Of a stretch of 64,000 nucleotides of DNA, positions 2,191 through 38,821 are shown one piece after another. The stretch comes from Meghimatium bilineatum. Taxonomy: Eukaryota > Mollusca > Gastropoda > Stylommatophora > Philomycidae. Position numbers and translations under genes: made by a program. The DNA is taken from NCBI GenBank assembly GCA_034231615.1, contig CM067298.1, positions 230,020 through 294,019 on the forward strand. The letters are read 5' to 3'. The notes beneath the pieces are model-generated. The model saw only the letters and a program-made list of their open reading frames with translations, was not told the DNA's origin and did not search any database. The first letter of the stretch is position 1. The number at the start of each line of letters is the position of its first letter.

Positions 2191-2261
2191 TGCTAACTCC
2201 TCATTATATGTGGGTTAATTCGCCCTTATATGTGCGAGAATTTGTACCCTCTACAATTTGT

Positions 2262-5322: not shown

Positions 5323-5469
5323 TGCACGAATTATGCACATTTCTTCAGGAGGACTAGATTTCATAACTTTTACCCAGTTATTCATCATTTGTCGATATGC
5401 CAACCCATGGTACATTGTAACCGGTGTCTGGTCTGTCTGCTACAATATCTGCCTGACTTGACACCGTGG

Positions 5470-6180: not shown

Positions 6181-6181
6181 A

Positions 6182-7258: not shown

Positions 7259-7270
7259 AAGACAAAATTA

Positions 7271-8700
7271 ATGCATAAGGAGATACGGCTGATCACAAAT
7301 AAGAAAAATCCTATAAATGGGGGTGGCTGCATTAAAGATAACAATGGTAAAATAATATTTGATAAAACAGAAGCACTCACAAGATGGGCAGATTATGTAA
7401 CAGAACTGTTTGACGACCAACGGAACAAAAAAACCAACAATACACAACAATGATGGACCAGCAATACTGAAATCAGAAGTAGAACATGCAATAAATTCAA
7501 TAAAATGTGGAAAAGCTGCAGGCTCTGACAACATAACAGCAGACATAATAAAAACTAAATTAATTTGGTGTAGATACTATCACAGAAATTTGCAATGACA
7601 TATACGAAACAGGCCATATACCTAAAGACCTAACATCATCAATATTCATACCACTACCTAAGAAGCCCAGGGCTGTGGACTGTACAGAATATAGAACAAA
7701 AAGTCTAATGAGCCATCTAACTAAAATACTTCTAAAGATAATACATGAAAGAATTAAGAACAAGATAGACATGGAGGTCGGTGAAGAACAATTCGGTTTT
7801 AGGAAAAACAAAGGAACTAGAGAAGCTATACTGAGTATCCGGCTAGTGATAGATAAATATATAGAAGTCCAAAAAAGTATCTATATTTGCTTCATAGACT
7901 ACAGCAAGGCCTTTGACAGAGTCCAACATGAAAAATTAATCAAATGTCTTGAAGAAATAGGCATAGATGGAAAAGGCATCAGGCTGATTAGAAATATATA
8001 TTGGGAACAAACTGCATCAATAAGGTGTGAAAACAGCTACTCTCCATACATAGAAATAAGAAGAGGGGTAAGACAAGGATGCATTTTATCACCAAGCCTA
8101 TTTAATATCTACACAGAGAATATCTTAAAAAAATATAGAAGAAACACCAGGACTCAAGATCAATGGGAAAATAATAAACAACATTAGATATGCAGATGAC
8201 ACTGTTCTTTTGGCAGAAAGTGAACATGAACTAAAAAGACTAATAGATCAAGTCAATAAATCAAGTAATGAATATGGACTGGATATAAACATTCAAAAAA
8301 CAAAAATCATGATAATCAGCAAAGACACAGAAGAACAGGAGATAAACATAAACATTCATGGAGAGAAACTACAACAAGTAAAACATTATCAATATCTTGG
8401 ACACATAGTCACAAATGATGGCAGATGTGAAACAGAAGTTAAAAGGAGAATAGGAATGGCTAAAAGTACCTTCAATGGCATGAGGAAATTATTAATATCT
8501 AAACAAATTACAAACAAGTTAAAAATGAGAATTATAAAATGCTACATCTATTCCATATTAATGTATGGCTCAGAAACATGGACACTAAATAAACAATTAG
8601 AAGACAAAATTGATGCCTTTGAGATGTTGGTATATAGATGAATAGGGAGAACATCATGGAAAGAGAAGAAAACAAATAAAGAGGTGCTAAAGACACTTAC
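7271..8700 (+). pseudogene. RTE reverse transcriptase, frameshifted
   Basis: Pieces in different frames assemble into an RTE reverse transcriptase. A finger region with GKAAGSDNIT is near 7,510, and a frame change follows near 7,560. Next come IPLPKKPRAVDCTEYR (7,650), EEQFGFRKNKGTRE (7,785), FIDYSKAFDRVQHEKL (motif A, near 7,895) and RRGVRQGCILSPSLFNIY (motif B, near 8,063). RYADDTVLLAES (motif C, YADD, near 8,187) lies across another frame change. Thumb and connection sequence (8,210-8,641) includes YGSETWTLNKQLEDKIDAFE. The catalytic aspartates are still present; the defects are frameshifts and stops (8,187, 8,641), not active-site loss. Confidence 0.85.
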
Positions 8701-8961
8701 TATGAAGAAAGAACTACTAAGAGAAATTAGATCTGGCAAATAAAATACTTTGGACACATTAAAAGACATGACACCCTATTGAAGACCTTACTTGAGGGTA
8801 AAGTCAAAAGGAAGCGAGCAAGAGGTAGGCAGAGATACAAGTGGGAGAGTAACATTACACGATGGACAGGTTACAGTCTAGCAGAGTGCACCACCAAGAC
8901 AAGAGACAGGAGATGTTGGAGATACGTTGCAGCCAACCTTCGTTGTGGAGACGGCACATGA
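8701..8961 (+). pseudogene. RTE C-terminal region
   Basis: After a stop near 8,640 the reading continues with GHIKRHDTLLKTLLEGKVK, then RARGRQRYKW near 8,815, and closes with WRYVAANLRCGDGT and a stop just before the gatgatgatg tail. This basic, tryptophan-containing tail ends most RTE proteins. The same end is seen in the relative at about 18,355. Confidence 0.8.
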
Positions 8962-8969
8962 TGATGATG

Positions 8970-9300
8970 AAAGGAAGCTAAGAAAGAGCACTGGGATAAT
9001 TTCGCACAAGATGTGGCAGCCGACAGTGCCCTATACAAATTTTGGAAATTACTCAAGGCAATGAACTGAAAAACTGACACAAAATTAAACATGTGCTTGA
9101 ATGACGAGTCGGGGCTTATACTAACCACAGATGAGCAGAAGGGCAGCACTTTCTTCAGTAGATACATTCAACAATCAGACCAGAGCAATATTGATGAACG
9201 TAAGACTATAGTGGCCACAAACGATATCGCTGATGAGGAACTGGTCTCGTTGGAGAATGTAAAAGAGACCATTAAAAAATCATCAGATGGCACACCAGGG
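8970..9300 (+). pseudogene. RNase H-type LINE: linker to RT, middle part
   Basis: The reading resumes from the left piece: KKEHWDNFAQDVAADSALYK, FWKLLKAMN, a stop near 9,067, then CLNDESGLILTTDEQKGSTF and VKETIKKSSDGTPG. The last resembles the K-G-xPGPDG motif that opens the reverse transcriptase of I/Jockey-type LINEs. The rest of the reverse transcriptase is absent, and an inverted RTE fragment begins at about 9,300. The catalytic core was therefore deleted or replaced. Confidence 0.75.
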
Positions 9301-14843: not shown

Positions 14844-15720
14844 ACATCTACACAACAACACAATATGTCTGTATGACTCACATCTTCTACACAACAACAC
14901 ACTATGTCTGTATGACTCACATCTTCTACACAACAACACACTATGTCTGTATGACTCACATCTACACAACAACACACTATGTCTGTATGACTCACATCTA
15001 CACAACAACACACTATGTCTGTATGACTCACATCTTCTACACAACAACAGAATATGTCTGTATGACTCACATCTTCTACACAACAACACACTATGTCTGT
15101 ATGACTCCTATCTTCTACACAACAACACACTATATGATTCACATCTACACAACAACACACTATATGATTCACATCTACACAACAACACACTATGTCTGTA
15201 TGACTCACATCTTCTACACAACAACACACTATATGATTCACATCTATACAACAACACACTATATGATTCACATCTACACAACAACACACTATGTCTGTAT
15301 GACTCACATCTACACAACAACACACTATGTCTGTATGACTTACATCTTCTACACAACAACAGAATATGTCTGTATGACTCACATCTTCTACACAACAACA
15401 CACTATGTCTGTATGACTCACTTCTTCTACACAACAACACACTATATGACTCACATCTACACAACAACACACTATGTCTGTATGACTCACATCTTCTACA
15501 CACGAACACACTATTTATGTATGACTCACATCTTCCATACAAGAACACACTATATCTGTATGACTCACATGTTCCATAGTACAACATACTATGTATGCAT
15601 GATTTACATATTCTATAGTACAACACACTATTTCAGTATGACTCACATGTTCTATAGTACAACACACGATGTATGTGTGACTCACATCTTCCATACAAGA
15701 ACACACTGTATGACTCACTT
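14844..15720. repeat. Minisatellite, 39 bp unit, right half of a split array
   Basis: Units of ttctacacaacaacacacta followed by tgtctgtatgactcacatc, with frequent shortened forms lacking ttct or tgtctg. The monomer matches the array at 12,965-13,515. Several frames stay open for 170-320 codons on both strands, purely because most unit lengths keep the reading phase. Confidence 0.95.
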
Positions 15721-16325: not shown

Positions 16326-17042
16326 ACGAATATCAGATGTCTACATATGTTACGTGTAGTATATGTTAACATACGTTACGTGTAGTACATGTCCACATAG
16401 GTTACGTGTAGTACATGTTCACATATGTTACGTGTAGTACATGTTCACATACGTTACGTGTAGTACATGTCCACATAGGTTACGTGTAGTACATGTTCAC
16501 ATATGTTACGTGTAGTACATGTTCACATATGTTACGTGTAGTACATGTTCACATATGTTACGTGTAGTACATGTTCACATACGTTACGTGTAGTACATGT
16601 TCACATATGTTACGTGTAGTACATGTCCACATATATTACGTATAGTATATGTTAACATATGTTACGTGTAGTACATGTTCACATATGTTACGTGTAGTAC
16701 ATGTCCACATATATTACGTATAGTATATGTTAACATATGTTACGTGTAGTACATGTTCACATATGTTACGTATAGTACATGTCCAAATAACGTATGACTA
16801 TCACATGTCCACATATGTTAGTAATATCAGATATCCGCGTATGCTAGTTATATCACATGCCCACATATGCTAGTAATATCCCATGTCCACATATGCTAGT
16901 AATATCCCATGTCCACATATGCTAGTAATATCACATGTCCACATATGCTAGTAATATCACATGTCCACATATGCTAGTAATATCACATGTCCACATCTGT
17001 AAGAAATATTAGATATACGCGTATGCTAGTTATATCAGGTAT
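16326..17042. repeat. Minisatellite, 26 bp unit, two subfamilies
   Basis: About 18 copies of tacatgttcacatatgttac plus gtgtag run to about 16,790. They are followed by about 10 copies of a related 26 bp unit, tatcacatgtccacatatgc plus tagtaa. The second subfamily continues in pieces at 18,361-18,574 and 19,027-19,160, separated by two RTE insertions. Confidence 0.9.
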
Positions 17043-17058
17043 TCACTAGTTATATCAG

Positions 17059-18360
17059 AACTTTGCAATGACATATATGAAGCAGGCCACATACCTAAAG
17101 ACCTAACATCATCAATATTCATACCACTACCTACGAAGCCCAGGGCTGTAGATTGTACAGAATACAGAACAGTAATTCGAATGAGTCATTTAACTAACAT
17201 ACGTCTCAAGATAATATATAAAATAATAAAAACAAGAGTGTCCGACTAGTGATATATAAATATATTTTAGTCCAAATAGTCCATATTTGCTTCAAAGACT
17301 ACAGAAAGGCCTTTGACAGAGTCCAACATTAAAAATTAATCAAATGTTTTCAAGAAATAGGCATAGATGGACAAGACATCAGACCGATTAGAAATATATA
17401 CTGGTAACAAACTGCATCAATAAGGTATAAAAAGAGATACTCACCATACATGGAAATAAGAAAATGGGTAAGACAAGGATGCATTTTATCACCAAGCCTA
17501 TTTAATATCTACACAGAGAATATCTTTAACAATATAGAAGCAATGCCAGAACTCAAGATCAATGGGAAAATAATAAACAACCTGAGATATGCAGATGACA
17601 CTGTTCTTTTAGCAGAAAGTAAACATGAACTACAAAGACTAATAGATCAAGTCAATAAATCAAGTAATAAATATGGACCGGAAATAAATATCTAAAAAGC
17701 AAGAACCATGACAATCAGCACAGACACAGAAGAACAAGAGCTAAACATAAACATACATGGAAACTACAACAAGTAAAACAGTATCAATATCTTGGACACA
17801 TAGTCACAAATGATGGCAGATGTGAAAGTTAAAAGGAGAATAGGAATGGCTAAAGGTACCTTCAATGACAAGGAGAAATATTACCATCTAAATATTACAA
17901 ACAAGTTAAATATGAGAATTATACAATGCTACATCTATTCTATATTAATGTATGGCTCAGAAACATGGACACTAAACAAACAATTAGAAGACAGAATTGA
18001 TGCCTTTGAGACGTGGGTATATAGGAGAAAAGGAGAACATCATGGAAAGAGAATAAAACAAACAAAGAGGTTCTAAAAACACTTATTATGAAGAAAGAAT
18101 TACTAAGAGAAGAAAGCATCAAACAAATAAAATAATTTATACACATTAAAAGACATGACACCTTATTGAAGACCTTTTTTGAGGGTAAAGTCAAAGGCAA
18201 GTGAGCAAGAAGTAGGCAAAGATATAACTTGGAGAATAACATCACACGATGGACATGTTACAGTCTAGCAGAGTACACCACCAAGACAAGAGACAGGGGA
18301 TGTTGGAGATCCGTTGCAGCCAACCTTCGTAGCGGAGACGGCATTTGATGATGATGATGA
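17059..18360 (+). mobile_element. RTE/BovB-type LINE copy (family A), 5'-truncated
   Basis: This is closely related to the element at 6,181-8,969 and starts within its reverse transcriptase (matching about 7,586). It includes GCILSPSLFNIYTENIF, LRYADDTVLLAESKHELQ near 17,584, YGSETWTLNKQLEDRIDAFE and a tgatgatgatgat tail. Many stops and small deletions break it, so it is a pseudogene. Flanks tcactagttatatcag (17,043-17,058) and tcactagtaatatcag (18,361-18,376) match at 15 of 16 bases and are a likely target-site duplication in the 26 bp array. Confidence 0.9.
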
Positions 18361-19609: not shown

Positions 19610-20118
19610 ATATCATCGCCAGGTGACATATTCTTACCAGAACGTATGGATCTCTTGAATTCTCCGCGGTCTTGAGCAAGTTATTTTGTCTCATCTCTTG
19701 ACACGTTCGTGTCTTTTAATGTGACCGAAAAATGTTCGCTTTTTCTTTAATTTGGTGTTCAGAAGTCAGATTTCCTGGACGTTAATTATTCATAACGCTT
19801 CCTGGTTTCTTTCCCTTACTGTCCGTGGTATTCTCAGAACTCTTCAACGGCACTTTAATTGAAATGATGTTATTCTCTTGGCCACTGATTTATATAGTGT
19901 CCATGCTTCACATCTATATGCCGCCACAGAAAACACAAATTTTCGTAGTAAACCGAAATTGTTCATATGTTAGCACCCTGCCATAATAGCACCCAGCTGT
20001 TTTAATTTTGCCAGCGCCATTGCAGTTCTTCTTTTGATCCCAACTGCACGGTCACCCACATTGTTTATATTTGTTCCTAAATAATCAACATTTCTTCTAA
20101 ATTACAGTTTTCAATATT
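19610..20118 (-). mobile_element. RTE-type LINE fragment (family B), inverted
   Basis: On the minus strand it reads a broken C-terminal region, with VLRIPRTVREKK near 19,850, a LAQDRGEFRRSIRS reading near 19,650 and a cgatgat-type end near 19,612. The part at 19,850-20,118 is homologous to 9,300-9,600. It abuts the Penelope-like remnant at about 20,119. Confidence 0.75.
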
Positions 20119-20196
20119 AAAGAGGGCCACCAACAACTCTCTAACCCCTCTTTCTACACTGCTCGCACATCAGACTCGACGGTATCTAACCAAAAG

Positions 20197-21126
20197 GTGG
20201 TCAACAATACTGTGAACACCCTCATCCAGGACAACCACCTTCCCACCACTGCTCTTTGCATCGATAAAAGCTGTATAGGCAGACCCATCTTCTATATGCT
20301 GCCCAAAATACACAAGGAATTGAATCCCGGCAGACCTATTGTCTTAGCTTGCTCTTGTCCTACAGAGCGCATCTCTGATTTCCTCGACAGTATTTTGCAG
20401 CCCTTAGTCGAGGAACTGCCTTCATTCTTGAAAGACACCAAGCATGCCATAACCATTTTTTCTTCTGTGCATTTGTCTTCTGATCGCACCTATCGTCTGT
20501 TCTTGCTTGATGTTTGCTCTATGTACACTTCTATACCACACACCTATGGTCTTAGGGCGTTGCAGTTATTTCTGGACAAGAGTCCACATCCTTCTGTATC
20601 TACTCCCACCCTTATCCGCCTTGCTGAACGGGTGCTCACACTCAACTCTTTTGAATTCGATGGATATTTTATCGATCAGATCAGTGGTGTGGCCATGGGC
20701 ACTAAGATGGGGCCTAGCTATGCCTATCTTTTCATGGGACATCTAGAACATCTAGTTTGGTCTACCTACGATGGCCCATTCCCATCTCTTTTCCACAGAT
20801 ACATTGATGATGGGATAGGTATTACTGACATGACAGAAGCAGAACTGTCTCGCTTCATCAACTTCATCAACAATTTCAACCCCGCTATTAAATTCACATT
20901 TACTATTTCCACCACCTATGTCCATTTCCTGGACATCATTGTCACTATTCATCCCCTATACCTCAGCACATCAGTCTACTACAAACCACTGATGCACATG
21001 GATTTCTGCTCTACACTTCTTCTCATCCTCCCGCCTGTCGTAACTCTCTACCTTACTCACAGCTTCTTCGCCTTCGTCGCTTATTTAGCGATGACGACGA
21101 TTTTCTTGACAAATCCTCTGAGATGA
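20197..21126 (+). pseudogene. Penelope-like reverse transcriptase, truncated and frameshifted
   Basis: The open frame has the Penelope-type reverse transcriptase signature. MLPKIHKELNPGRPIVLAC is followed by LLDVCSMYTSIPH (first catalytic Asp), SGVAMGTKMGPSYAYLFMG, HRYIDDGIGITD (catalytic DD near 20,808) and VHFLDIIVTIHP. A one-base loss near 20,991 (after YYKP) shifts the frame, and a further small deletion near 21,135 removes the join to the endonuclease. Relative to the minus-strand copy the N-terminal 360 or so residues are missing. Confidence 0.85.
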
Positions 21127-21156
21127 TCGAGTTCCCTCCCTGACAGTATTCTTTCA

Positions 21157-21978
21157 TTGACTTGGCTCCGTGTACGCCAGCTATCTCGCGTTGATACCTT
21201 GAATAATTCCCATGGTTCTTCCTCCTCCTCTGATAGGGTTAATCTGGTTCTTACCGTCCATCCCCATAACTCGACTGTCCGTCGCATCCTGCTTAAGCAT
21301 TATTCCCTTCTCCTGTCTGATTCTGACACCCATGACGCTTTCCACAACTTACCTCTGGTGGCATATAGGCGCGACAAAAATCTGAAAGACAACTTGATCC
21401 ACAGGCACCTCAGGTCCTCTGCACCTGACCATTTTGGTACCGTTCGTTGCTCACGCGGTCGTTGCTACACATGTCCTTATGTGGTTCAGATGCGCTCCAT
21501 CTCATTTCCCAAGGCCAGTTTCTCTATCGATGAGGCCTTTACATGTGAATCCCGTAATGTTATTTACAAGATCATATGTAAACGCTGTGGTAAGCAATAT
21601 ATCGGTGAGACTGGCCTTAGACTGAGCGACCGCTTCTGTAACCACAAGCATGCTATCAAACACAGAACACCCACTCCTGTGGCTAATCACTTCAACGGCG
21701 ATAGCCACCGTGGTGTCCTTGACATTCAGGTCACTGCCATCAGATCCTGCACCACCGATGATAGATCTAGGTGCGCCTTAGAAAATTGTCTCATTTTCCA
21801 GTTGGGTACCATCAGGCCATTTAAACTCAATTCCGACCACTCTTTCGCTTATTTATCGGTCGGATTGATCTTTGTTGTTTTTATTCATTGTGTGCCGCCA
21901 TTTACGTCATCGTTTTGTTCCTCTCGTTCTACCTGTATTATCGTCTGTGTGTACTTCCTGTTCGTATCCATCCGGTAA
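21157..21978 (+). pseudogene. Penelope-like GIY-YIG endonuclease part
   Basis: This continues the previous pseudogene after the frameshifts. It shows the connecting region VRQLSRVDTLNNS, a cysteine cluster CSRGRCYTC near 21,450, and a GIY-YIG nuclease core. In the core NVIYKIICKRCGKQYIGETG near 21,556 has two cysteines between the GIY-like and YIG strands, followed by RLSDRFCNHKHAIKHR. The two cysteines and downstream histidines fit the CCHH zinc site described for Penelope-like endonucleases. A weakly conserved reading continues past the domain into low-complexity hydrophobic sequence, probably 3' untranslated. Confidence 0.85.
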
Positions 21979-25602: not shown

Positions 25603-25787
25603 CGTTTAAAACGTTGACATGTGTACTGGTGACATCCTTGTTACTAGTTCTACACACGTAGACACCTTGGTCTGAGAGACGAGCATGTTTGATCTCCAAT
25701 GTACTAATGATAGTACCCGTGTTGATGGAGACATATTTATGTATCTGCATGTCCCTAATCTGGTCAGTGGTCAGTGTATTACCCGCT
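25603..25787 (-). CDS. Ig-domain protein, exon encoding second half of an Ig domain
   Basis: A host-gene exon of 185 bp. On the minus strand it starts after acceptor ttgatatttcag and ends before donor gtaaat. It encodes the C-terminal strands of an immunoglobulin fold: STLEIKHARLSDQGVYVC carries the L-x-I, D-x-G-x-Y-x-C signature with the second disulfide cysteine, and HVNVLNG ends the domain. It joins in phase to the exon at 38,128-38,233, which supplies the first half. The intron between the halves is phase 2, while the outer boundaries are both phase 1, the usual arrangement for Ig domain exons. The VNVLNG ending recalls two-Ig neuronal surface proteins such as the Dpr/zig-8 group, but this is only a family-level guess. 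A downstream exon would lie at lower coordinates and was not found. Confidence 0.85.
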
Positions 25788-25814
25788 CTGAAATATCAAA
25801 TTACTACAAGCTTA

Positions 25815-26045
25815 TTGCAACTATATTGTTGTCTTAGAGAAAACTTTCTGTCTAACTATATTGTTGTCTTAGAGAAAACTTTCTGTCTAACTATATTGTT
25901 GTCTTTGAGAAAACTTTCTGTCTAACTATATTGTTGTCTTAGAGAAAACTTTCTGTCTAACTATATTGTTGTCTTAGAGAAAACTTTCTGTCTAATTATA
26001 TTGTTGTCTTAGAGAAAACTTTCTGTCTAACTATATTGCTATTTT
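25815..26045. repeat. Minisatellite, 35 bp unit, about 6.5 copies
   Basis: Units of aactatattgttgtcttaga plus gaaaactttctgtct. It lies only about 30 bp upstream (in gene sense) of the Ig exon acceptor. On the minus strand it is purine-rich (agaaagtttt), so it does not form the pyrimidine tract itself. Confidence 0.95.
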
Positions 26046-26159
26046 AGAGAGTAGTTATTGTAGATTATGTATTATTCTAAAGATAATGTTATTATAATTG
26101 TAGTTATTTTGAAGTAACTTACTATAGATGTAATGTTAGAGACAGGCATGATACTAACT

Positions 26160-27672
26160 TAAATTATAATAATGAAGGTCCGAGTATATTAAAGGCAGAC
26201 GTAGAGGAAGCTACACAACACTTGAAAAACAAATCATCGGATCCGGACAAGATTACAAAAGAAGAATTAGAAGCGATGGGAGATTATGGCATTGCAATTA
26301 TCACCAAAATGTTAAATGCCATCTACAACTGTAGCTGTATTCCATCTGATTTGTTACAATCAAATTTCATAGCCACTTGGTGCAGTAGATTGCGTAGATC
26401 ACAGAACAATCCGACGTGTGAGTCACATGACCAATATTCTACTGCACATAATAATGAGGCGTATAAGAGAAAAATAAAACCAGAGATAGCAGAAGAACAA
26501 TGCGAATTCGTAGAAGGAAAAGGCACAAGAAATTTCTTATATATTGTAAGAAAAATAATGGAGAGGGCCATGGAATGACAATAAGATATATGTTTGTGCT
26601 TCATAGATTACACCAAAGCATTTGACAAGGTGATGCATTCAGAGATTATAAAACTGCTAGAAAATCTTAACGTTGATGGGAAAGATCTAAGAATAGTAAG
26701 AAATATGTATTGGAAACAAACTGTTGCGATGAGAGTTAACAACACTATAGGTAGATTTCAAAAGATAGAAATTTGTGTCAAACAAGGTTTGTAATGTCTG
26801 AGGATCTTTTCAGCGTGTATACAGAATACATTATGTGACATATAGAAGACATGCCAGGAATAAAAGTGGGAGGATGCAAAATAAATGAATAAATAGAGAT
26901 ATGCTGATGACACAGTATTGATCGCAGGAACCGAACAGGAACTACAAGCCCTGTTAGATAAAGTAGTGAAAGAAAGTTAAAACAAAGCCCTCAGTTTGAA
27001 CAAGAAGAAAAAAAAGTAATGGTTGTCTGGAAGAGACATACACCACCAAGATGCAACATAATGATTAATGACAACAAATTAGCACAAGTTAAAAAAGTGA
27101 AATATCTTGGCACCTTGTTAACATCAGAAGGTAGATGCTCAAGTGAGATAAACAGTCGAATAGCACAAGCCAAATCAACATTCCAAACATAAGAACAATT
27201 TTTTGCAATGTAACACAATTAATGCAGACCTGAATTCGATTGCTGAGATGTTATATCGAACTAATTTTTTTTATGGATGTGAGGTATGAACTGTAAATTT
27301 AAAAAAAAATCAAACGGAACTGGCGTCTACGGAGATGTGGTTTCTTAGAAGAATAATGAAAATACCATGGGCAGCTAAGAAAACTAATGAATGTGTTCTC
27401 ATTGTTGACAATATAAATCATATCAAACATTAGATACAGACAGTCAATGTTTCTATGACATGTGCTGAGAACAACACAGCTTGAACACTTAATAACCACT
27501 GGAAAGATCAAGGGGAGAAGATTCGGGAAGACAATGAGAGAAGTTGCTAGATGGACTAGTAATGTGGCACCGTAGAAGATCACCAATCGAGCTTATTGAC
27601 AACACAAGAGCGGAGATTCGTGGAGAAATATGATCGACTACTCCATTCGGCATGGCACTTGATTGATCGAAA
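26160..27672 (+). mobile_element. RTE-type LINE (family C), reverse transcriptase to 3' end
   Basis: The reading starts at GPSILKADVEEATQHLKNKS and covers the reverse transcriptase. EEQCEFVEGKGTRN is near 26,490, CFIDYTKAFDKVMHSEIIKL (motif A) near 26,595, and a damaged QGL in place of the QGC of motif B near 26,785. RYADDTVLIAGTEQEL (motif C) is near 26,898, then LGTLLTSEGRCSSEINSRIA near 27,105. It ends in LEHLITTGKIKG, a closing basic region and ggcacttgattgat at 27,672. Stops and frameshifts are frequent, so it is a pseudogene. It starts inside the reverse transcriptase and lacks an endonuclease. The best-preserved shorter copies are at 19,165 and 22,660. Confidence 0.85.
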
Positions 27673-27866
27673 ACTACTTTTCTAGAAATACAATAATTAG
27701 TTGGCCGAAAAAGTTCAAAGGATTTCCTTCGTGAACAAAAACTGGACATAGTGTATAAAATATAATGTATAAATTTGTTGGGTCTAACCAACAATAACAT
27801 CGTATGCAAAACATGTAGTGTTATTCTTGCGAGAAGTTATTTTAAATATAGTTTTACTCCTAAAGA
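27673..27866. other. Unique intron spacer
   Basis: AT-rich sequence between the family C end and the 18 bp array. Nothing recognised. Confidence 0.5.
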
Positions 27867-27995
27867 CGTTATTATAAATATAGAAGTTATTATAAATATA
27901 GACGTTATTATAAATGTAGACGTTATTATAAATATAGACGTTATTATAAATATAGACGTTATTGCAAATATAGACGTTGTTGTAACTATCGTTAT
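27867..27995. repeat. Minisatellite, 18 bp unit, about 7 copies
   Basis: Units of gacgttattataaatata with small variants (gaagtt, aaatgtag, gcaaatatag). Single decayed copies flank it at about 27,830-27,850 and 28,005-28,025. Confidence 0.9.
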
Positions 27996-28191
27996 TTGGA
28001 GACGAGTTATTGTAAATATAGTCTTATTCTGGAAACATACTGAAATCACAAGTAGAAAATGCAATAGAAACAATGAAATGTGGAAAGGACGCAGCCGCTA
28101 ACAACAAACCTCCAGAAAAATAAAATATATTCAATGACATAAACAGGCTAGACCACAGGTGATGTTCCACAGGCATGAAGGGAAGCAATAA

Positions 28192-29390
28192 TTGTACCAC
28201 TCTTCAAATCAGGAAAATATGGCAACACAGTTTCCAATTACAGGTCCATCAGCATCACAAGCTGTTCATGCAAAACAATGGAACAAATTATCAATCTTTG
28301 GATGCAGTGGTACATCGAAAGTGAACAGGTGGTATCGCAGCAAGCAGGCTTCAGACAGTTCTATTCTACTGAAGATAAGGCAACCTACCTCTCCCAAGAG
28401 ATTGAGGACGCCTTCAAAGACAAGAAACTGGTACTCGCAGCATAGATAGACCACAGGAAAGCATTCGACAAGTTTTGAAAAGAAGGACTTTAAGAAATTG
28501 CAAGTTTAACTCAAAATGTACAAATGGGTAAACGCATACCTGCATAATAGAAGAGTCAGGGTACAATTGGATGGTCTCAAGAGCAAGAAAGTCCTACTGC
28601 GTCTTGGAGTCCACCAGGTAGAAATCCTGTCACCCACACGTTTCTTGGTTTACATGAATGCCCTAGTTGCCACACTACCACACGGCATTAAAATGACAAT
28701 GCATGCTGACGATCTAGTTATATGGTGCACAGAAGAGCATGCGACAGTGGCCACTAAACAAATACAAAGAGTTATCGATGCCCTAACTTATGGGCAAATA
28801 GATGGTGCGTCAACATTAACAACACAAATAAGTGCAGCACTGCACTTTTTACCCTCTCACCAAAACAAAAAGCCGGTCATATCAAGATAGAGCTCTTGAA
28901 AGAAGACAAACAACCCACATACCTCGGAGTTACTTTTGATGATAAGCTGACATGGAAGCAGCACATAAACAAAGCAACAACAAAATCCAGGAGGAAGCTA
29001 ACTATTTTGAGAAAACTAAGTGGAACCACATGGGGATCCAGTGGGAATATACTCAGTAAAGTTTACCAGCAAGACATAAGACAACACCTGGAATATGGTT
29101 CAGCTGTGTGGTGTCCTGCATCAAACACCACATTACAAGATCTAGATACAGTGCAAAACCAAGCTCTTATGATAATGCTGGGAGCAATGAAATCAACACA
29201 TACAGTAGAGATACAGAAAATTGGAAGAATGGAAACACTTGGTGAACGCAGAGACACAAAGGTGCTAATACAAGCAGAAAAGTTTCAATGTATGCCAAGT
29301 CATCCAATGAAGGAAAGATTCCAAAATCTAGCAATGGGGCGACTGAAGAGAAGCAGCTTTATCCACCAAACAACTTACAGATCTACCTGA
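28192..29390 (+). pseudogene. I/Jockey-like LINE reverse transcriptase
   Basis: Three frames are needed to read through. IIVPLFKSGKYGNTVSNYRS is near 28,185, QQAGFRQFYSTEDKATYLSQ near 28,340 and a motif A remnant (IDHRKAFDKF) near 28,447 with stops. YKWVNAYLHNRRVRVQLDGL is near 28,520 and motif B is damaged (GVHQVEILSPTRFLVYMNAL). Motif C reads MHADDLVIWC near 28,700, with His where the family has Tyr or Phe before ADD. The thumb region follows: TYLGVTFDDKLTWKQHINKA and SAVWCPASNTTLQDLDTVQN (28,896-29,390). Together these defects rule out activity. Confidence 0.85.
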
Positions 29391-29519
29391 AGTTGACAGC
29401 CCTTTAAGGTATGTACCAGAACAAACCAATTGGATTTAAAGGTATGGAATACCAATATACATTAAGACCCACATAAAAGGAATACTAAGCGAGGACGTAC
29501 AAAACAGTGTGCAGCCAAG

Positions 29520-30294
29520 GACAGTCACCATCAGTCTCCTAGACGAGGAATATCTATAAGACATATGGGTCAGAGTATACACAGATGGGTCAGCACAGAA
29601 TGCTGTGAGGAATGGAAGTGCAGGTGTAAATATAGAATATACACACACGCCTAGATATACAATCAGAACACCAGCAGGGAAATTATGCAATATTTATGAT
29701 GCAGACATCTAAGCAAATTATGGTGGCAACTGAAAAACTGATGATCTCTAATCCTGGCCACAGTCCGCAGTTTTCCTGACAGATGCAAGGTCAGCGTTTC
29801 AAGCTCTAGAGTATGGACAACTAACAGACTTGCAAAAACTACTTAATGAGCTGTCTTACCAGTATAGAGTAGCCATGCAGTAGATACCCTCTCACTGTGG
29901 AATACCAGGAAATGAAAAAGCAGACCAACTGGCTAAGGAAGGTGCTGCCGAAGACCAACCAGATATACCAATCACCTACCATCAGAAAAAACAGATGATA
30001 AAGCATATATATATACGCCTCAGGAACGGGACACAACAGACTGCGCAGTCACATGTATACAAAATTCAAGATTGGCAACACGACCATGTGCACATGTGGA
30101 CAGACAGCACAGACAAATATATATTTCAAGAGTGTTCTGATGAAACGCTGAGGAAGACATACTGGCCATAGGAAACAACACTGGCATCACAGCTCTATGG
30201 GCCACTGTATGAACTACAAAAGACAGTGAGTTATATTCAGGAGACAATTACAGATTTAGACATGTTTCACGTGAACGAAAGAAGAAGAAGAACT
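29520..30294 (+). pseudogene. I/Jockey-like LINE RNase H domain
   Basis: Read across stops, the domain has RVYTDGSAQNAV near 29,572 (first catalytic Asp), FLTDARSAFQALEYGQL near 29,773 (third catalytic Asp) and IPSHCGIPGNEKADQLAKEG near 29,884 (late His and Asp). The Glu helix is degraded around 29,695. A C-terminal stretch continues to VNERRRR, which is simply the translated gaa-rich tail. Stops near 29,710, 29,731, 29,750 and 29,881 disable it. Confidence 0.8.
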
Positions 30295-30469
30295 TCGTAT
30301 GAAAAAACAAATATTATAGGAAATACAAATCTACGTTATTCAACATATTATGAACAAGTTATTATATTGTTATTCTAGACATAGCTAGTTTTAGTTTGTT
30401 TCTTTCGTGCCGCCGGTGGCACATGGGGCAGATGTTTTTATTCTCCGTGTGTTTCTATGAGAAAATATG
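30295..30469. other. Unique intron spacer with a small imperfect hairpin
   Basis: Contains gtgccgccggtggcac at about 30,408-30,423, a near-palindrome in otherwise AT-rich DNA. No gene is seen. Confidence 0.4.
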
Positions 30470-30690
30470 GCAACGTATTCATAACAACACTAAATTGACC
30501 CTTTTAAGATCATGTGTTTTTCCAGTGGCAATTTATGGATGCGAGACTTGGACTTTAAACAAGACAATATCCAAAAAAATAAATTCATTTGAAATGAAGT
30601 GCTACAGAAAGATCATACGAATATCATGGACAGAGAAAAAGAAGAACATGGAAGTTTTAAAATTACTGAAACTAACGAAGATATAATACC
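30470..30690 (+). pseudogene. RTE-type LINE fragment (family B)
   Basis: The open frame reads LTLLRSCVFPVAIYGCETWT, LNKTISKKINSFEMKCYRKI and IRISWTEKKKNMEVLKL, the region after the reverse transcriptase palm. It is truncated on both sides. It is the best-preserved copy of this segment and helps identify the fragments at 9,300, 18,575 and 19,610. Confidence 0.8.
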
Positions 30691-30779
30691 AGTATACCGT
30701 ATATACAGAGACGTACTATCGAGATACGCAACTGTATAAGTATGTAAGGGTATGTAAAACATCTGAGTGCATGGATATT

Positions 30780-31280
30780 TATGTTATGTAAAATATGTGG
30801 ATACATGAGTATATGATATGTAAAATATGTGGATACATGAGTATATGATATGTAAAATATGTGGATACATGAGTATATGATATGTAAAATATGTGGATAC
30901 ATGAGTATATGATATGTAAAATATGTGGATACATGAGTATATGATATGTAAAATATGTGGATACATGTGTATATGATATGTAAAATATGTGGATACATGA
31001 GTATATGATATATAAAATATGTGGATACATGAGTATATGATATGTAAAATATGTGGATACATGTGTATATGATATGTAAAATATGTGGATACATGAGTAT
31101 ATGATATGTAAAATATGTGGATACATGTGTATATGATATGTAAAATATGTGGATACATGAGTATATGATATGTAAAATATGTGGATACATGAGTATATGA
31201 TATGTAAAATATGTGGATATATGTGTAAATGATCTGTAAAATATGTGGATACATGTGTATATGATATGTAAAGCACAAGT
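30780..31280. repeat. Minisatellite, 32 bp unit, about 15 copies
   Basis: Units of aaaatatgtggatacatgag plus tatatgatatgt, with a 'gtgtat' variant. Three minus-strand frames of 164-172 codons remain open because 32 bp units cycle through all three frames without stops. These are not genes. Confidence 0.95.
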
Positions 31281-31730
31281 GTGAATGGATATTTATGATA
31301 TGTATGTGTAACGTATTTGAGTGAATGGGAATTAATGATTTGTAATGAATATGGGTGAATGTGTACCTATGATATGTAAAGTATATGGGTGAATGTATAC
31401 CTATGATATGTAAAGTATATGGGTGAATGTGTACCTATGATATGTAAAGTATATGGGTGAATGTGTACCTATGATATGTAAAGTATATGGGTGAATGTGC
31501 ACTTATGATATGTAAAGTATATGGGTGAATGTGTACCTATGATATGTAAAGTATATGGGTGAATGTGCACTTATGATATGTAAAGTATATGGGTGAATGT
31601 GCACTTATGATATGTAAAGTATATGGGTGAAAGTGTATTTTTCTCATATGTAAGGTATATATGGGTGCAGGTGTATTTTTTCATATGTAAGGTATATATG
31701 GGTGCAAGTATATATGTATGACCATGTGTG
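31281..31730. repeat. Minisatellite, 34 bp unit, about 9 copies
   Basis: Units of gtaaagtatatgggtgaatg plus tgtacctatgatat, with a 'gcactt' variant. They grade into atatgggtgcaggtgtattt-type units at the right end. The unit shares atgatatgtaaa with the 32 bp array next to it, so the two probably have a common origin. Confidence 0.9.
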
Positions 31731-31836
31731 TGTGTAAGAACCCATTGCTTAATGGAAAAGTACTATATATGTATATAAGCATTTAAGTCGTTTTTTTGTA
31801 CATTTACATTTATTGATTTTTTTTTTTTAATTAAAA

Positions 31837-31868
<32 letters not shown>

Positions 31869-31885
31869 ATAATTTAAAAAAAAAA
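31731..31885. repeat. AT-rich low-complexity tract
   Basis: A T-run, an (AT)n run of about 20 bp pairs and an A-run in succession. It may mark the junction of an old insertion, but no duplication of flanks is visible. Confidence 0.8.
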
Positions 31886-33139
31886 TCCTCCACAGAGTCT
31901 ACAAGACCATCCAAACCTTTGGATGCCAACAGAAGACCCACAATCATATATTTCTAGGAGGAGAACCAAGACCAAAGAGCCTAACACCAAAGGCACCAAG
32001 TAAAACAAACAAGCCCTTCTTAGGACTACATCCCAATCCCCCAATATTCCTTTTGTCCTTATAACGACACGTAGACCAGACCCCAGGTCAAATCACCAGT
32101 CCCTAACAGGACAACCCAGGCCAGTGGGCCACAATATACGACCAGATATAACTAAAGAAAAACCATTCCACAGTTGAAAGAGACGTGTCTGACTCTAGAC
32201 AGACAAATCCACTAGCTTACAAACAAATAAACAGAAGAAATCTACCCTTTGTCACACTACTCTCCTGCCGACTGAAAAACTACCGGAGGTACGAGTTCAT
32301 TGAATCAGGATCTTATTACGGAATTCCCTACCTCTCTGGAAGTGTAGCGAAACATGAGAGTAGAGAGTTTCACATACATTTTAGGGTGTCATCGAGAAAA
32401 TGATATGCCAGTTTAAGAGCGATAGATATGGTTGGCCCGGAATTCATTATAACATGGAGACACCTGGCTGAGATAGAGAGTCAGAACAAAAGATAAAGAG
32501 GCTGAAGCAAAGTTTCCCACAGTACATTTTTACATCAGTAATTCAATCAAGGAAAACTGACAGACCCGGGACACACTTGGACGAGAAAGTTAAATGCAGA
32601 TTCTACTTACACAGGGGAACGCATACATTAACACAACTGAGAACCCATTAGCTATTCTATCGGAATGACAGAGTTTGCAGAAATGTTGAAATACAAGACG
32701 CCAGAATATAAAGGTGAAAGAATTAATTAAAATGGAAATTAGTTGTTGCTAGTCATTTCGTGAAATGGGAAAACCCTCTGACAGGAGTTTTAAGTTAGAG
32801 AAGGGGAGGTATTAGAAGTAAGATTGACAGAAAATAAAATAGTTGTTTGCTTGTGTGAGAAGACTATCTCGAAAAGACCAATGAAGTGCTTCGACACACA
32901 CAACGGGAGAGGGACGTGTTAAGCTAGAAAAAGGGCTGTTCTCTAGCTTTTCGGGGGTTCCTACTTGAGTTTTCGGAGAGTTAGGGTCTGGAGTTGCGGA
33001 CCCCAGCAGTGAGAAGGGCCTACTGCAAGACGGAGACTAGCAGAATTCGAAACATCAGAAGAGACCAGAGAGAGGTCGCAGAATATGTATCATCTGCAAT
33101 CGATGCAACATGACGTACATATGTGAAGCTGGTATAAGG
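31886..33139. other. 1.25 kb of unassigned unique intron sequence
   Basis: Richer in G+C than its neighbours and free of tandem repeats. The only open frame (32,185-32,403, 72 codons) matches nothing I recognise. Near 33,060-33,130 a plus-strand reading ICIICNRCNMTYICEAGI resembles the cysteine-rich end of piggyBac-type transposases, and a 15-base T-run follows. I would treat this as a possible decayed DNA transposon. Confidence 0.3.
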
Positions 33140-33279
33140 CTTTTTTTTTTTTTTACTGATTGATTCCGCGAGCACCTGCACAGCATAAAACATCATTCGG
33201 GCTCTCCTGTCGACGTCCATTTCAATGGCACATGCCTTTGGGCGCTCAGAATATTTACATGACGGCCATTAAAGCGTGG

Positions 33280-33668
33280 ATCTTCGACGCCAGGACCCGT
33301 CTCGCGTTCCAGAACCGCTATTATTACGCTTTGACCCTTTGGGAAGTAATAAAAACCTGGCATATGCATGGTATCGTGTTGTTCCGTCACTTTTTCTGTT
33401 TGTCTCGTTTTCACTTTTATTTGCTTTTGTTTTTGTATATTTCTAATATCTGTACATTTCCTGTTTGTGTCACCTTTAACTTAAAATTATATCCTTCCTG
33501 CCATCTCGATAGACACATGAACACCAGTTGTGTAGTCCCTAACTGTCGTTTTTGATGTATAAAATCGTTCGTTACTGCATATTTTCCTGTGAAGAAGAGC
33601 ATGTAGGATTTCTATGTAATCCTTGACAAAGGACTTTCGGTCTAAACGTTTATTAATGTGTGTGTAAA
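33280..33668 (+). mobile_element. Probable 3' end of another Penelope-like element
   Basis: T-rich 3' untranslated-like sequence leads to ccttgacaaaggactttcgg followed by tctaaacg at 33,621-33,648. The same design (TTGAxAAAG-stem-loop-GAAACG) sits at the 3' end of the Penelope-like element on the other strand (34,397-34,426), and sequences of this kind are common at ends of these elements. No coding part remains. Called from the end motif only. Confidence 0.45.
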
Positions 33669-33699
33669 TATGTGTGTTTCATGCTATTAATACAACGGC

Positions 33700-34180
33700 A
33701 TTACACCGTTTCACGCTTTATTTTACCGAAGTTGTCGACTTGTGAGAGCCAATTATTATTGACTGCTCGGTCCACCTGCCAACCATCTATTGTGGTGGCG
33801 AGACTAGCTAATTGGTCTGCTCGTTCGTTTTCCTCCACGCCCGCGTGTCTGGGGACAAAGATGTGTGTCAATTTTCGCAGTGAGGTTCGCATTTTAGCTC
33901 TTACTAATGACTCCGCCCATCCCCTACGTACATCACTTGTTTTGACTTTCTGAATCATATTTATTGATTCACTCAATATGCACGCATGCGAATAGATTTG
34001 TGATTTCAGCCAGTTAGCTGCCTGCGTTACGGTAAATACTTAATTGTTATAACTTCTCAATGTATATTGACTGCTTGTTGTTGCAGTAAAAGCTTCAATG
34101 ACTTTGTATGCTGTTCTTCCGTGTTATCTGGCAGTAAATGCCCATGCACATTGCTGGTAGTGGTTGGCCGACACGTGTAA
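33700..34180 (-). pseudogene. RNase H domain fragment of a LINE, minus strand
   Basis: The minus strand reads AWAFTAR near 34,150, VTQAANWLKSQIYSHACILS, SESINMIQKVKTSDVRRGWA and IFVPRHAGVEENERADQLAS. The last is the late His/Asp motif of RNase HI; SES replaces the usual TDS, losing that catalytic Asp. The frame is open for 91 codons (33,701-33,976) and continues upstream with breaks. It resembles the RNase H at 9,990-10,783 more than that at 29,520. Confidence 0.75.
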
Positions 34181-34618
34181 ATCATGTAAATCCATGTAAA
34201 TCCCAGCGACAATCAATACAAGGTAACTGCGTGAAACGTAACAACAATTAGACTTACGTAAAACACAGGTTTATATATCGTCTCAATGGGACACCATAGA
34301 CTATATCTAACACTAGTGGGTAATGATGGGCAATGATGATCACATAAGAAATCATAAAAATTACAATACACAAATCATATTCACACAAATCATATTCAAC
34401 GTTTCAACCAAAAGGTCTTTATCAAGACACAAACAAAACATTAAAAGACGACGAATAGAAAAATTATCACAACGTCCAACGGAAATATGGAAATGATATG
34501 CCGGAAGGTCAGAAAGTACATAAAAACGTATATAAATTTGGAAATGAAACGAACAAAAAGGTGAGTAAATGACGGAACAAAAAAAAAGAATAAAGACAAA
34601 GACCACACCAAACCAGTA
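34181..34618 (-). mobile_element. 3' flank of the Penelope-like element
   Basis: Downstream (minus sense) of the intact coding region. It holds T-rich sequence, then ttgataaagaccttttggtt followed by gaaacgttg (34,426-34,397), then two copies of gaatatgatttgtgt. The motif has the outline of a hammerhead catalytic core. The exact element end, somewhere between about 34,200 and 34,380, could not be fixed and no target-site duplication was identified. Confidence 0.5.
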
Positions 34619-37450
34619 CTAGACATAAGAGTGGTCGGAATTGAGTCCAAAAGGCTTGAGTGTACCCATCTCGAAAATGAGACGATTTTCTAGAGCATAC
34701 CTAGATCTATCATCGGTGGTGCAAGATCTGATGGCGGTGACCTGAATATCCAAAGCACCATGTTGACCGTCGCCGTTGAGGTGTGTGGCCACAGGAGTGG
34801 GTGTTCTGTGCTTGATGGCATGAAGATGGTTACAAAAACGATCGCTCAATCGTAGGCCGGTTTCCCCGATGTACTGTTTGCCACAGCGTTTACATATGAT
34901 CACGTAAATGACATTACGGGATTCACATGTAAAGGCCTCATCGATGGAGAAAGTGGCCTTGGGAAATGAAATGGAGCGCATCTGAACCACATAAGGACAT
35001 GTAAAGCAACGGACACGTGAGCAACGAACAGTGCCAAAATGGTCAGGAACAGAAGACTTAAGATGGCTATGAACCAAGATGTCCCTCAGATTTCTATCAC
35101 GCCTATAAGCCACCAGAGGTAAGTCATGGAAAGCGTCACGGGTGTCAGGATCAGACTGGAGAAGAGAATAATGTTTGAGCATGATGCGTCGAACAGAAGA
35201 GTTATGGGGATGAAAGGTAAGAACAAGTTTAACCCTATCAGAGGAGGAGGAAGAACCCTGAGAGTTAGTCAAGGTATCGAGGCGAGACAAATGGCGCACA
35301 CGGAGCCAAGCGGAAGAAAGAATGCTGTCAGGGAACGATCGTCTACGGAAAAACTCAATCATCTCAGAGGACTTGTCGAGAAAATCGTCGTAATCGCTAC
35401 ATAAGCGACGCAGGCGAAGAAGCTGGGAGTACGGGAGAGAGTTGCGACAAGCAGGAGGATGAGAAGAAGTGTAGAGAAGAAAGCCATGTGCATCAGTAGG
35501 TTTATAGTAAACGGATGTGCTAAGGTAAGGGGGATGAATGGTGACAATGATGTCAAGGAAGTTGACAGAAGTAGTGGAGATATTAGATGTAAATTGAATA
35601 GCAGGGTTAAAACTGCCGATGAAGTTGATGAAACGAGACAATTCAACTTCGGACATGTCGGTGATACCTATCCCATCGTCAATGTATCTATGGAAAAGAG
35701 ATGGGAACGGGCCATCATAGGTAGACCAAACTAAATGTTCCAAATGTCCCATGAAGAGACACGCATAGCTAGGTCCCATTTTGGTTCCCATGGCAACGCC
35801 ACTGATCTGATCGAAAAAGTGTCCATCAAATTCAAAAGAGTGTAGCGTAAGCACCAGTTCAGCAAGACGGATAAGAGTAGAAGTGGATACAGAGGGGTGG
35901 GGACTCTTGTCAAGAAAGAACTGTAGAGCCCTGAGACCATCTGCATGGGGTATAGAAGTGTGCAAAGAACAGACATCAAGCAAGAACAGACGATAGGTAC
36001 GGTCAGAAGACAACTGGACGGTAGAAAAAATAGTTAGGGCATGCTTAGTGTCTTTCAAGAATGAAGGCAGTTGTTCGACTAACGGCTGAAAAATGCTGTC
36101 AAGGAAGTCGGAGATGCACTCAGTCGGACAAGAGCAAGCAGAGACAATAGGTCTACCCGGATTCGATGCCTTATGGATTTTAGGCAGCATATAGAAAACA
36201 GGTTTGCCTAAACAACTTTGATCGATGCAAAGATATTTGGCAGTGGTAGGAAGGTCATTGTTAAGGATAAGGGTTTTCACAGTGTTGTTAACAACCTTCT
36301 GGTTAGTTACAGTCGTATCAGATGTACGTGCAGTGTAGAAAGAAGGATTGGAGAGTTGTTGGTGGCCCTCCTGGAGGTAAAGGTCCTTACGCCAAACCAC
36401 AACGGCCCCACCCTTATCTGCTGGTTTGATGACAATATCATCACGGCGACGAAGATGTGCCAAGGCGCGAGATTCTTCAGGGGTGATGTTTGAGCGACGA
36501 ATGCGGTTGTGATGAAGTGACTTAATGTCATGGAGAGTATTCTTGATGTAAAGATCAAGAGCTTGAGATGCACCAGGCTTTGGAGTCCAGGGATATTTCT
36601 TCTGTTCATATCTAGAAAACAAATCGTCAGTACAAGATGAAACTTTGCCAAAGAAATGATAATGAAGCCGAAGACGACGATGGTAGCGGTGGATATCCTG
36701 AAGAAGAGAGTATTGATCGCATGTAGGACGGAGAGGGACGAACTTGAGGCCCTTGCTAAGAACAGAAATTTCACTATCAGAGAGACTGAGGTCAGGAGGA
36801 ATGCGAACAACCGGTGCGTTGGAATGACCAGGAAGATGAACAGCAGCATTAGTAGTCAGGTGAGAAGTGGGAATGTCAGAGAGATTAGTGAAACGAGGTA
36901 GTAGAGAACTGGCTACAGCAGGGCTAGAACGGGGGAAAACAACGTGAGATGTGGATTGAAGAGAATTGAGTTTATTGTTGTGATGAGTGCACATAAACTG
37001 GTATAATTGACCATTGAGGACGGGGATAATACCCCGAAAAAGGGAGTACAGTAGAATGTTATTGTAAGTAAGGAACTGTAAACGTTTTAAAAGTAAGACT
37101 TTAGAAGAGTCGAGATCAGATAAAAGATGAGTATGGTTAGAAGATATAATACGCATGCGTTGAAAAGCGCATTTGTCGTCTATGCGTTGGAGTGAGCGCT
37201 GCTCACGCGGGTACAAGAAACCGGCAGATGGATGAAATTTGGAGGAAAATCCTTTAGGGATAACATGACGACGGTCACAAGTGACAAGAAAATGGCGGTG
37301 ACAGAAGAATTTGGTCTTCTTGAACGTAACCAAAGCCAGTTCAGTGGCTGTATTACGGATGTCATGCGGCAAAAGGCTGAAAGAAACAATGGTAAATCCC
37401 AGCATCTGTGTGGTCGACATGTTCGCAGACAAGTGTCTTGAACTCAGCAT
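34619..37450 (-). CDS. Penelope-like element polyprotein, intact frame (RT + GIY-YIG)
   Basis: A 943-codon uninterrupted frame. It encodes a retrotransposon protein that copies RNA into DNA and cuts the target with a GIY-YIG nuclease. In order: an N-terminal region with the family's LSDSEISVLSKGLKFVPL (223-240); ADKGGAVVVW (344-353); and the reverse transcriptase with MLPKIHKASNPGRPIV (421-436), LLDVCSLHTSIPH (490-502, catalytic Asp492), SGVAMGTKMGPSYA (550-563), YIDDGIGI (589-596, Asp591/592) and VNFLDI (629-634). After a connector come CSRVRCFTC (810-818) and the GIY-YIG core, NVIYVIICKRCGKQYIGETG (846-865), with Cys853/Cys856 between the two strands, His residues at 875, 878 and 881, and Glu921. 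The extra upstream cysteine cluster is a feature I recall for the Neptune group. His497 stands where Tyr is usual (the plus-strand relative has Tyr). The first Met is used; the true start may be further in. Confidence 0.9.
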   Translation of the reverse strand: MLSSRHLSANMSTTQMLGFTIVSFSLLPHDIRNTATELALVTFKKTKFFCHRHFLVTCDRRHVIPKGFSSKFHPSAGFLYPREQRSLQRIDDKCAFQRMRIISSNHTHLLSDLDSSKVLLLKRLQFLTYNNILLYSLFRGIIPVLNGQLYQFMCTHHNNKLNSLQSTSHVVFPRSSPAVASSLLPRFTNLSDIPTSHLTTNAAVHLPGHSNAPVVRIPPDLSLSDSEISVLSKGLKFVPLRPTCDQYSLLQDIHRYHRRLRLHYHFFGKVSSCTDDLFSRYEQKKYPWTPKPGASQALDLYIKNTLHDIKSLHHNRIRRSNITPEESRALAHLRRRDDIVIKPADKGGAVVVWRKDLYLQEGHQQLSNPSFYTARTSDTTVTNQKVVNNTVKTLILNNDLPTTAKYLCIDQSCLGKPVFYMLPKIHKASNPGRPIVSACSCPTECISDFLDSIFQPLVEQLPSFLKDTKHALTIFSTVQLSSDRTYRLFLLDVCSLHTSIPHADGLRALQFFLDKSPHPSVSTSTLIRLAELVLTLHSFEFDGHFFDQISGVAMGTKMGPSYACLFMGHLEHLVWSTYDGPFPSLFHRYIDDGIGITDMSEVELSRFINFIGSFNPAIQFTSNISTTSVNFLDIIVTIHPPYLSTSVYYKPTDAHGFLLYTSSHPPACRNSLPYSQLLRLRRLCSDYDDFLDKSSEMIEFFRRRSFPDSILSSAWLRVRHLSRLDTLTNSQGSSSSSDRVKLVLTFHPHNSSVRRIMLKHYSLLQSDPDTRDAFHDLPLVAYRRDRNLRDILVHSHLKSSVPDHFGTVRCSRVRCFTCPYVVQMRSISFPKATFSIDEAFTCESRNVIYVIICKRCGKQYIGETGLRLSDRFCNHLHAIKHRTPTPVATHLNGDGQHGALDIQVTAIRSCTTDDRSRYALENRLIFEMGTLKPFGLNSDHSYV

Positions 37451-37740
37451 TCATGCTCACATGTCTGTGTTCCCTGTACTTTCTGTTGAGTGTAATGACG
37501 GTATGGACTGTCTCTTGAAAGATCGTCGGAATAAGTACCTATTTCTCACCAGGAGATATGACTTTCGGGGCTCCATTCTGTATAACAGTACACTCGGAAC
37601 GACGCATCCACGATGTGCCCCTCTTGAGCCTGCTTCCTTTCACACGAGGGAGCACTGTGTAATGGATGGTCTACATTTTTGACATGCGCACCCTATCCCC
37701 TCCAAATAAAGATAATTCCATACAGCAATATCGAATTTCC
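37451..37740 (-). mobile_element. Probable 5' flank of the Penelope-like element
   Basis: Sequence upstream (minus sense) of the 943-codon frame up to the 57 bp array. It has no long frame of its own. No copy of the 3' flank is recognisable here, so a terminal repeat could not be shown. Part of it may be ordinary intron. Confidence 0.4.
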
Positions 37741-37751
37741 CTGAAAAGATT

Positions 37752-38040
37752 ATATTTGAAAACGGAGTACAAAGCGTGTTTTATTAGCCGATCGGCTATC
37801 ACTTTTTCATATTTGAAAACGGTGTACAAAGCATGTTTTATTAGCCGATCGGCTATCATTTTTTCATATTTGAAAACGGTGTACAAAGCGTGTCTTATTA
37901 GCCGATCGGCTATCACTTTTTCATATTTGAAAACGGTGTACAAAGCGTGTTTTATTAGCCGATCGGCTATCACTTTTTCATATTTGAAAACGGTGTACAA
38001 AGCGTGTTTTATTAGCCGATCGGCTATCACTTTTTCATTT
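37752..38040. repeat. Minisatellite, 57 bp unit with a perfect palindrome, 5 copies
   Basis: Each unit contains catatttgaaaacggtgtac, aaagcgtgttttat and a perfect 14 bp palindrome tagccgatcggcta at 37,785, 37,842, 37,899, 37,956 and 38,013, exactly 57 bp apart. Because 57 is a multiple of three, frames remain open on both strands (127 and 119 codons), but these are mirror readings of the repeat. The array ends about 90 bp from the splice donor of the Ig exon. Confidence 0.95.
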
Positions 38041-38127
38041 CACATTTGAATACATTGATGATGGTATCAACTTAGCACTAAGTAAACAAGTATGTATGTT
38101 TCACAATGTGTCTATATAGATTCTAAC

Positions 38128-38233
38128 CTGAACCAGTCGATATCTTCTGGTGGATATTCCTGACTTGAAGCATTGCAGATTAGATAAATGCGATCTCCCT
38201 CGTCCACATAATTAGAGCCGGATATATGAATGT
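38128..38233 (-). CDS. Ig-domain protein, exon encoding first half of an Ig domain
   Basis: A host-gene exon of 106 bp. On the minus strand acceptor gtattttcgtctgcag precedes it and donor gttaga follows it. It encodes HISGSNYVDEGDRIYLICNA and EDIDWF: the first disulfide cysteine and the core tryptophan of an immunoglobulin fold. It starts in phase 1 and ends in phase 2, and joins without a frame break to the exon at 25,603-25,787, which supplies the second cysteine. The frame is also open for about 50 codons upstream, to a Met at 38,384. That part lacks Ig character and lies before a strong acceptor, so I treat it as intron; an alternative first exon is possible. The protein is probably a secreted or membrane-bound adhesion or recognition molecule. 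Confidence 0.85.
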
Positions 38234-38639: not shown

Positions 38640-38821
38640 ATAATATAGAGATAAAACCATATCTGTACCTCTGTTGTATAAACTACACAAAAGGCATTTG
38701 ATCAAGTTAAAGTTTAGTGAAGTTATGACAAAGAATGTGAACATCGACAGTAACAATTTAAGAATCATCAAGAACATGTACTAGCATCAAATAACGGCAA
38801 TAATAGCATGAATAACAAATG
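38640..38821 (+). pseudogene. RTE reverse transcriptase scrap
   Basis: A short broken reading INYTKAFDQVK, MTKNVNIDSNNLRIIKNMY and HQITAII matches the motif A region of RTE family C (compare about 26,595-26,730). The satellite array begins immediately after it. Confidence 0.65.

Follow-up and report, generated by a model that had tools for sequence, protein, structure and literature searches.

Results

Layout of the locus

The window, meaning the whole stretch of 64,000 nucleotides that was analysed, holds two short minus-strand segments, each carrying half of an Ig domain, in DNA rich in retroelements and tandem repeats. The features to which we refer, of which the exons and the intron are proposed ones, are as follows.

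6,050-8,970, plus strand: LINE copy that has kept its endonuclease ORF, with RT in two overlapping frames (Pfam matches at 6,050-8,641)
17,052-18,357, plus strand: second LINE copy, a relative of the element at 6,050-8,970
25,603-25,787, minus strand: second-half Ig exon, with the second Cys and D-x-G-x-Y-x-C; phase 2 entry, phase 1 exit
25,788-38,127, minus strand: intron of 12,340 bases, about 61% retroelement-like coding or tandem repeat
34,619-37,450, minus strand, the same as the gene: open frame of 943 codons inside the intron, presumably of a Penelope-like retroelement
38,128-38,233, minus strand: first-half Ig exon, with the first Cys, an N-A-S sequon and the Trp; phase 1 entry, phase 2 exit
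38,669-38,777, minus strand: weak candidate leader (signal-peptide) exon, a hydrophobic reading from an ATG with a phase-1 GT at 38,668
38,813-64,000, no strand: satellite array of a 32-base unit, about 787 copies, 39% of the window, reaching the window end

Two proposed exons in one open frame

The initial annotation had proposed two exons at this locus, and their coordinates, minus strand, AG/GT borders and phases (1, 2, 1) were all reproduced from the sequence. Read on the minus strand, the first exon (38,233-38,128) has TTTTCGTCTGCAG directly before it and GTTAGA directly after it, and the second (25,787-25,603) has GATATTTCAG directly before it and GTAAAT directly after it. The first exon is composed of 2 bases, 34 full codons and 2 trailing bases, and the second supplies the third base of the split codon (Arg), 61 codons and 1 base left over. 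Joined, they give 96 complete codons (34 + 1 split + 61) that are stop-free, with 3 and 9 stops in the other two joined frames. The length of this reading had been given as 97 residues; the extra codon is presumably the first one, whose first base sits in another exon. The junction, W-F-R-A-G-N, is continuous and without a gap, and the joined translation holds both cysteines, the tryptophan and the D-x-G-x-Y-x-C motif, which we take to be an Ig signature. Both outer edges are in phase 1, so that the exon pair is symmetric in the manner of an extracellular module; symmetric 1-1 exon modules are usual in many extracellular multi-domain proteins. An alternative acceptor AG, 2 bases downstream of the second-exon acceptor, was rejected, because it brings an in-frame stop two codons later and the upstream site is therefore the better one.

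Splice sites were scored with a generic approximate matrix drawn from general knowledge and ranked within the minus strand of positions 1-38,812, which holds 2,831 GT and 1,965 AG. The donors of the first and second exons rank 72nd and 78th of 2,831 (top 2.5-2.8%), the former with a T at +3. The acceptor of the first exon ranks 45th of 1,965 (top 2.3%) and that of the second, which has a weak pyrimidine tract, 352nd of 1,965. Consensus acceptors and donors had been claimed throughout; AG and GT do stand at all borders, with three good sites and a mediocre second-exon acceptor.

The frame of the first exon stays open upstream to 38,387, and the exon could in principle be longer than we propose, the AG before 38,233 perhaps not being an acceptor. 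Such an extension would add 51 open codons, for which the chance is about 9% at the intron stop frequency. We regard this reading, which is otherwise compatible with the shorter exon, as improbable: an acceptor of the rank just given sits at the 38,233 border, that phase-1 border falls near the start of the Ig match described below, and the sole Pfam match of the upstream stretch is DUF7667 at E 0.16.

An Ig domain across the junction

A profile search of the joined reading against the Ig families, which the initial annotation had suggested as a check, gave a clear result. The best family, Pfam Ig_3, scores 47.5 bits (cut-off 30; E 2.7e-12), well over its cut-off and in one continuous match over residues 4-84. 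That match spans the junction and bears out the claim of a single Ig fold split over two phase-compatible exons. The joined reading also exceeds the cut-offs of ig (43.5 bits, cut-off 21.8, E 3.9e-11), I-set (37 bits, cut-off 23.7, E 3.6e-9) and Ig_2 (31.4 bits, cut-off 27, E 2.3e-7), and falls under those of V-set (24.6 versus 26 bits) and C1-set (16.2 versus 21). Taken alone, the first and second halves score 17.9 and 21.8 bits with Ig_3; the best Pfam score of the second half is 22.0 bits (ig), and the first half reaches at most 17.9. A control with the halves in reversed order still scores 36.1 bits with Ig_3, in a match split into two stretches. The cut-off of 30 is still exceeded, since either half resembles an Ig domain on its own, and the order and the junction are accordingly worth only 11 of the 47 bits.

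Matches to solved structures include receptors of cell adhesion and guidance, namely DSCAM, Robo1/2, NCAM2 and VEGFR2 (among the best 60 of 477 distinct sequences at E <=1). VEGFR2, the top match listed, owes its score to several weak domains added together, and no single DSCAM stretch among those listed does better than an i-Evalue of 0.034, so these matches indicate an Ig domain and nothing finer. The assignment halts at the Ig superfamily, which is too diverse for a gene name to be given.

Could two random open segments merely resemble Ig halves? A spliceable second half, written as a regular expression, is matched once in 1-38,812 with both strands searched, at the reported exon; the mean in shuffled sequence is 0.18. 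Because 13 of 100 shuffles also contain at least one match, the second-half motif alone is not compelling, and the corresponding first-half expression is uninformative (106 real matches versus 67.8 +/- 8.9 shuffled). The joined match is far more demanding: counting every GT-AG pair on two strands and in three frames gives about 3e7 trials, over which about 1e-4 chance matches as good as the Ig_3 match would be expected. We consider chance resemblance extremely improbable.

A tblastn search of the whole window found neither exon a second time; the next-best matches, E 0.03 with the second half as query and 0.16 with the first, are short stretches elsewhere. This result bears on a reading in which both exons are real and not joined directly, what comes between them being either an exon that escaped recognition or other partner halves from beyond the window. 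Mutually exclusive half-Ig exons are known from Dscam, where they encode the N-terminal halves of Ig2 and Ig3 (PMC6851185), and this arrangement would be of the same kind. It nevertheless seems quite unlikely here, given that no duplicate of either half turned up in the window, that the second-half motif in 1-38,812 matches this exon only, and that the Ig match crosses the junction as a single stretch.

Searches of other sequence collections gave 10 pattern matches to the Ig reading in viral contigs, none of them a relative by tblastn. The exact 32-base satellite unit was not found in viral contigs, nor an exact 24-base piece of it in bacterial and archaeal contigs. The collections being viral, bacterial and archaeal, these negatives are silent on animal relatives. 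Two 15-base satellite strings were not found in the literature text searched.

The proposed intron and its retroelements

The 12.3 kb intron had been called transposon-filled, which is a fair description. Retroelement stretches account for 5,877 bases and tandem arrays for 1,710, together 7,587 (61%), an estimate in that non-coding parts of elements are uncounted, some counted ORF parts are without a Pfam match, and the query set included the intron's own frames, so that the retroelement share is partly self-defined by its ORFs. A 35-base tandem array (25,819-26,050) is separated from the second exon by 31 bases, and a 57-base tandem array (37,752-38,038) lies 89 bases past the first exon.

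The 943-codon frame matches no Pfam family at E 0.001 when searched whole. Pieces of it match RVT_1 (E 0.00028; 21.1 bits, under the cut-off of 29.6) and GIY-YIG (E 0.00054; 20.6 bits, under the cut-off of 22.6), and we take it to be Penelope-like by this order, RT then GIY-YIG, and by its motifs. A stop-broken partner copy on the plus strand (20,101-21,978) shares 84% DNA identity with it over about 1.7 kb. The open frame may reflect a fairly recent insertion. The two LINE copies share 89% DNA identity (7833-8970 versus 17236-18357), and relatives of the first were matched at 17,052-18,025, which falls in the second copy, at 26,285-27,183 and elsewhere.

Positions 1-25,400 also contain scattered minisatellite families, with units of 33 bases (1-723), 34 bases (2259-3774), 39 bases (14847-15707), 26 bases (16337-17037) and others. 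Near-identical readings in opposite orientation, without a Pfam match, occur at 4548-4811 (minus) and 5059-5502 (plus); they either form an inverted repeat or represent an unclassified element present twice.

The upstream satellite and the remainder of the gene

Exact 8-mers of the 32-base unit cover 86% of the satellite, and the gaps between them reach 27 bases at most. The unit is close to a dimer of a 16-base unit. The array, at least 25 kb long, lies upstream of the first Ig exon at a distance of 579 bases. Because that exon is entered in phase 1 at 38,233, an upstream coding exon is required, and because the satellite begins where it does, this exon must lie either in the 579-base gap or past at least 25 kb of satellite. 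We raise, as a tentative and somewhat less probable than even suggestion, that it lies past the satellite. One intron of an Ig gene would then hold at least 25 kb of 32-base satellite, and the half-domain exons would be transcribed-through islands in tandem repeat.

The gap does contain the candidate leader exon, with a donor of 0.5 bits and an implied intron of 435 bases to the first Ig exon. At a donor threshold of 0.5 bits, the leader search returned 7 minus-strand readings and just missed this one; the threshold was then set to 0.4, after the candidate's score had been seen, which gave 10 readings on the minus strand, the candidate included, and 1 on the plus strand. At 10 per 38.8 kb of minus strand, about 0.15 leader-like readings are expected in 579 bases. 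No Pfam match was found for the candidate, and we treat it as a weak lead and do not claim it as an exon.

Minus-strand stop-to-stop ORFs of at least 30 codons in 1-38,812 that are not mainly tandem array number 302. Profile scans covered 13 ORF pieces on this strand, together with the whole Penelope-like frame and two pieces of it, and the larger ORFs only on the plus strand; the remaining minus-strand ORFs that end below 25,700 or start above 37,500 were read by eye. These scans, of a small fraction of the ORFs, brought to light no other exon of the gene, in the 25.6 kb downstream or elsewhere in the window, and no host domain besides the Ig pair. The statement that this is the only host gene visible accordingly holds for the profile-scanned ORFs, which are a small part of all ORFs.

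The isolation of the pair could also mean decay: part of an Ig gene, recently duplicated or cut short, would have been left among the repeats, its frame still open and its expression lost. The lack of other recognised exons in the window, the tandem arrays closely flanking both exons with the satellite beginning at 38,813, and the weak second acceptor would all suit such a fragment. Against this reading, the 96-codon frame, its phases and the four borders are intact, and so are the tryptophan and the two cysteines. Because the chance of 95 open codons is about 1.2% at the local stop frequency, any inactivation would have to be recent. As evidence of current coding, an open stretch of 96 codons carries modest weight. 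We judge the fragment reading unlikely, while giving it more weight than the alternatives to direct joining and to the shorter first exon considered above.

Discussion

Based on the borders, phases, open frame and profile match, all of which the analysis shows, we propose that the two segments are most likely successive exons of an animal Ig-superfamily gene on the minus strand, normally spliced into one Ig domain. From these features we infer splicing and expression, and likewise the fold, the location of the protein and the remainder of the gene. The primary transcript would pass through the repeat-rich 12.3-kb intron, and ordinary GT-AG splicing would unite the exons in phase 2 and restore one Ig domain, in which the two cysteines, one from each exon, could form an intradomain disulfide. 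The likely product is an adhesion or recognition protein, secreted or at the surface; a secretory route would be in keeping with the N-A-S sequon, which lies at the first cysteine.

The layout is ordinary, since neither an Ig domain encoded by two exons nor a long intron rich in repeats is unusual; biologically, the pair adds a further Ig domain of that kind. Automatic predictors can overlook short exons where repeats are dense, and the exon pair is a candidate for the gene set of this species. The spanning of the satellite by the gene is the sole part that could gain interest, if shown.

Several known systems bear comparison with this arrangement. Two exons are described as encoding the first Ig domain of Trk in Daphnia and in vertebrates (PMC2772990), and likewise IgI and IgII of nematode FGFRL1 and IgI of Drosophila FGFRL1 (PMC2754479); the exon pair here is like them in that one Ig domain is spread over two exons. 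PMC2754479 also gives phase-1 exon limits for the FGFRL1 genes of human and Nematostella; in the parts of that account drawn on here, the phase-1 genes are not those with two-exon Ig domains, whereas the pair described here combines both traits. FGFRL1 further has three Ig domains and a transmembrane segment in one gene (PMC2754479). As regards FGFRs, FGFRL1 and Trk, scans of a small part of the ORFs in the window recognised one Ig domain, and no transmembrane segment, kinase or further Ig exon.

In Dscam, a large gene, the N-terminal halves of Ig2 and Ig3 are placed on alternative exons, as set out in PMC6851185. The likeness lies in an N-terminal Ig half on an exon of its own, and Dscam is also among the solved structures matched. 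Unlike in the hypervariable Dscam gene, with its arrays of near-duplicate half-Ig exons, no array of alternative half-exons was found within the window, and nothing there points to a choice of the Dscam kind.

The snail FREPs, whose Ig domains are described as V-type and accompanied by fibrinogen (PMC7588048), are likewise invertebrate Ig-domain genes, and were considered because the window gives the impression of invertebrate DNA. The domain here differs in matching Ig_3, ig and I-set best, with V-set under its cut-off, and a fibrinogen domain was absent from the ORFs scanned, which are a small fraction of those in the window; the gene may extend past it.

Finally, Drosophila kl-3 and kl-5 have gigantic introns with long satellite arrays (PMC6508621). 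The satellite here measures at least 25 kb, not megabases, and its placement within the gene is putative; the likeness would be a satellite inside an intron, possibly also here. Only if the upstream satellite is intronic would this locus bear on transcription through long satellites, as described for the Drosophila Y chromosome (PMC6508621).
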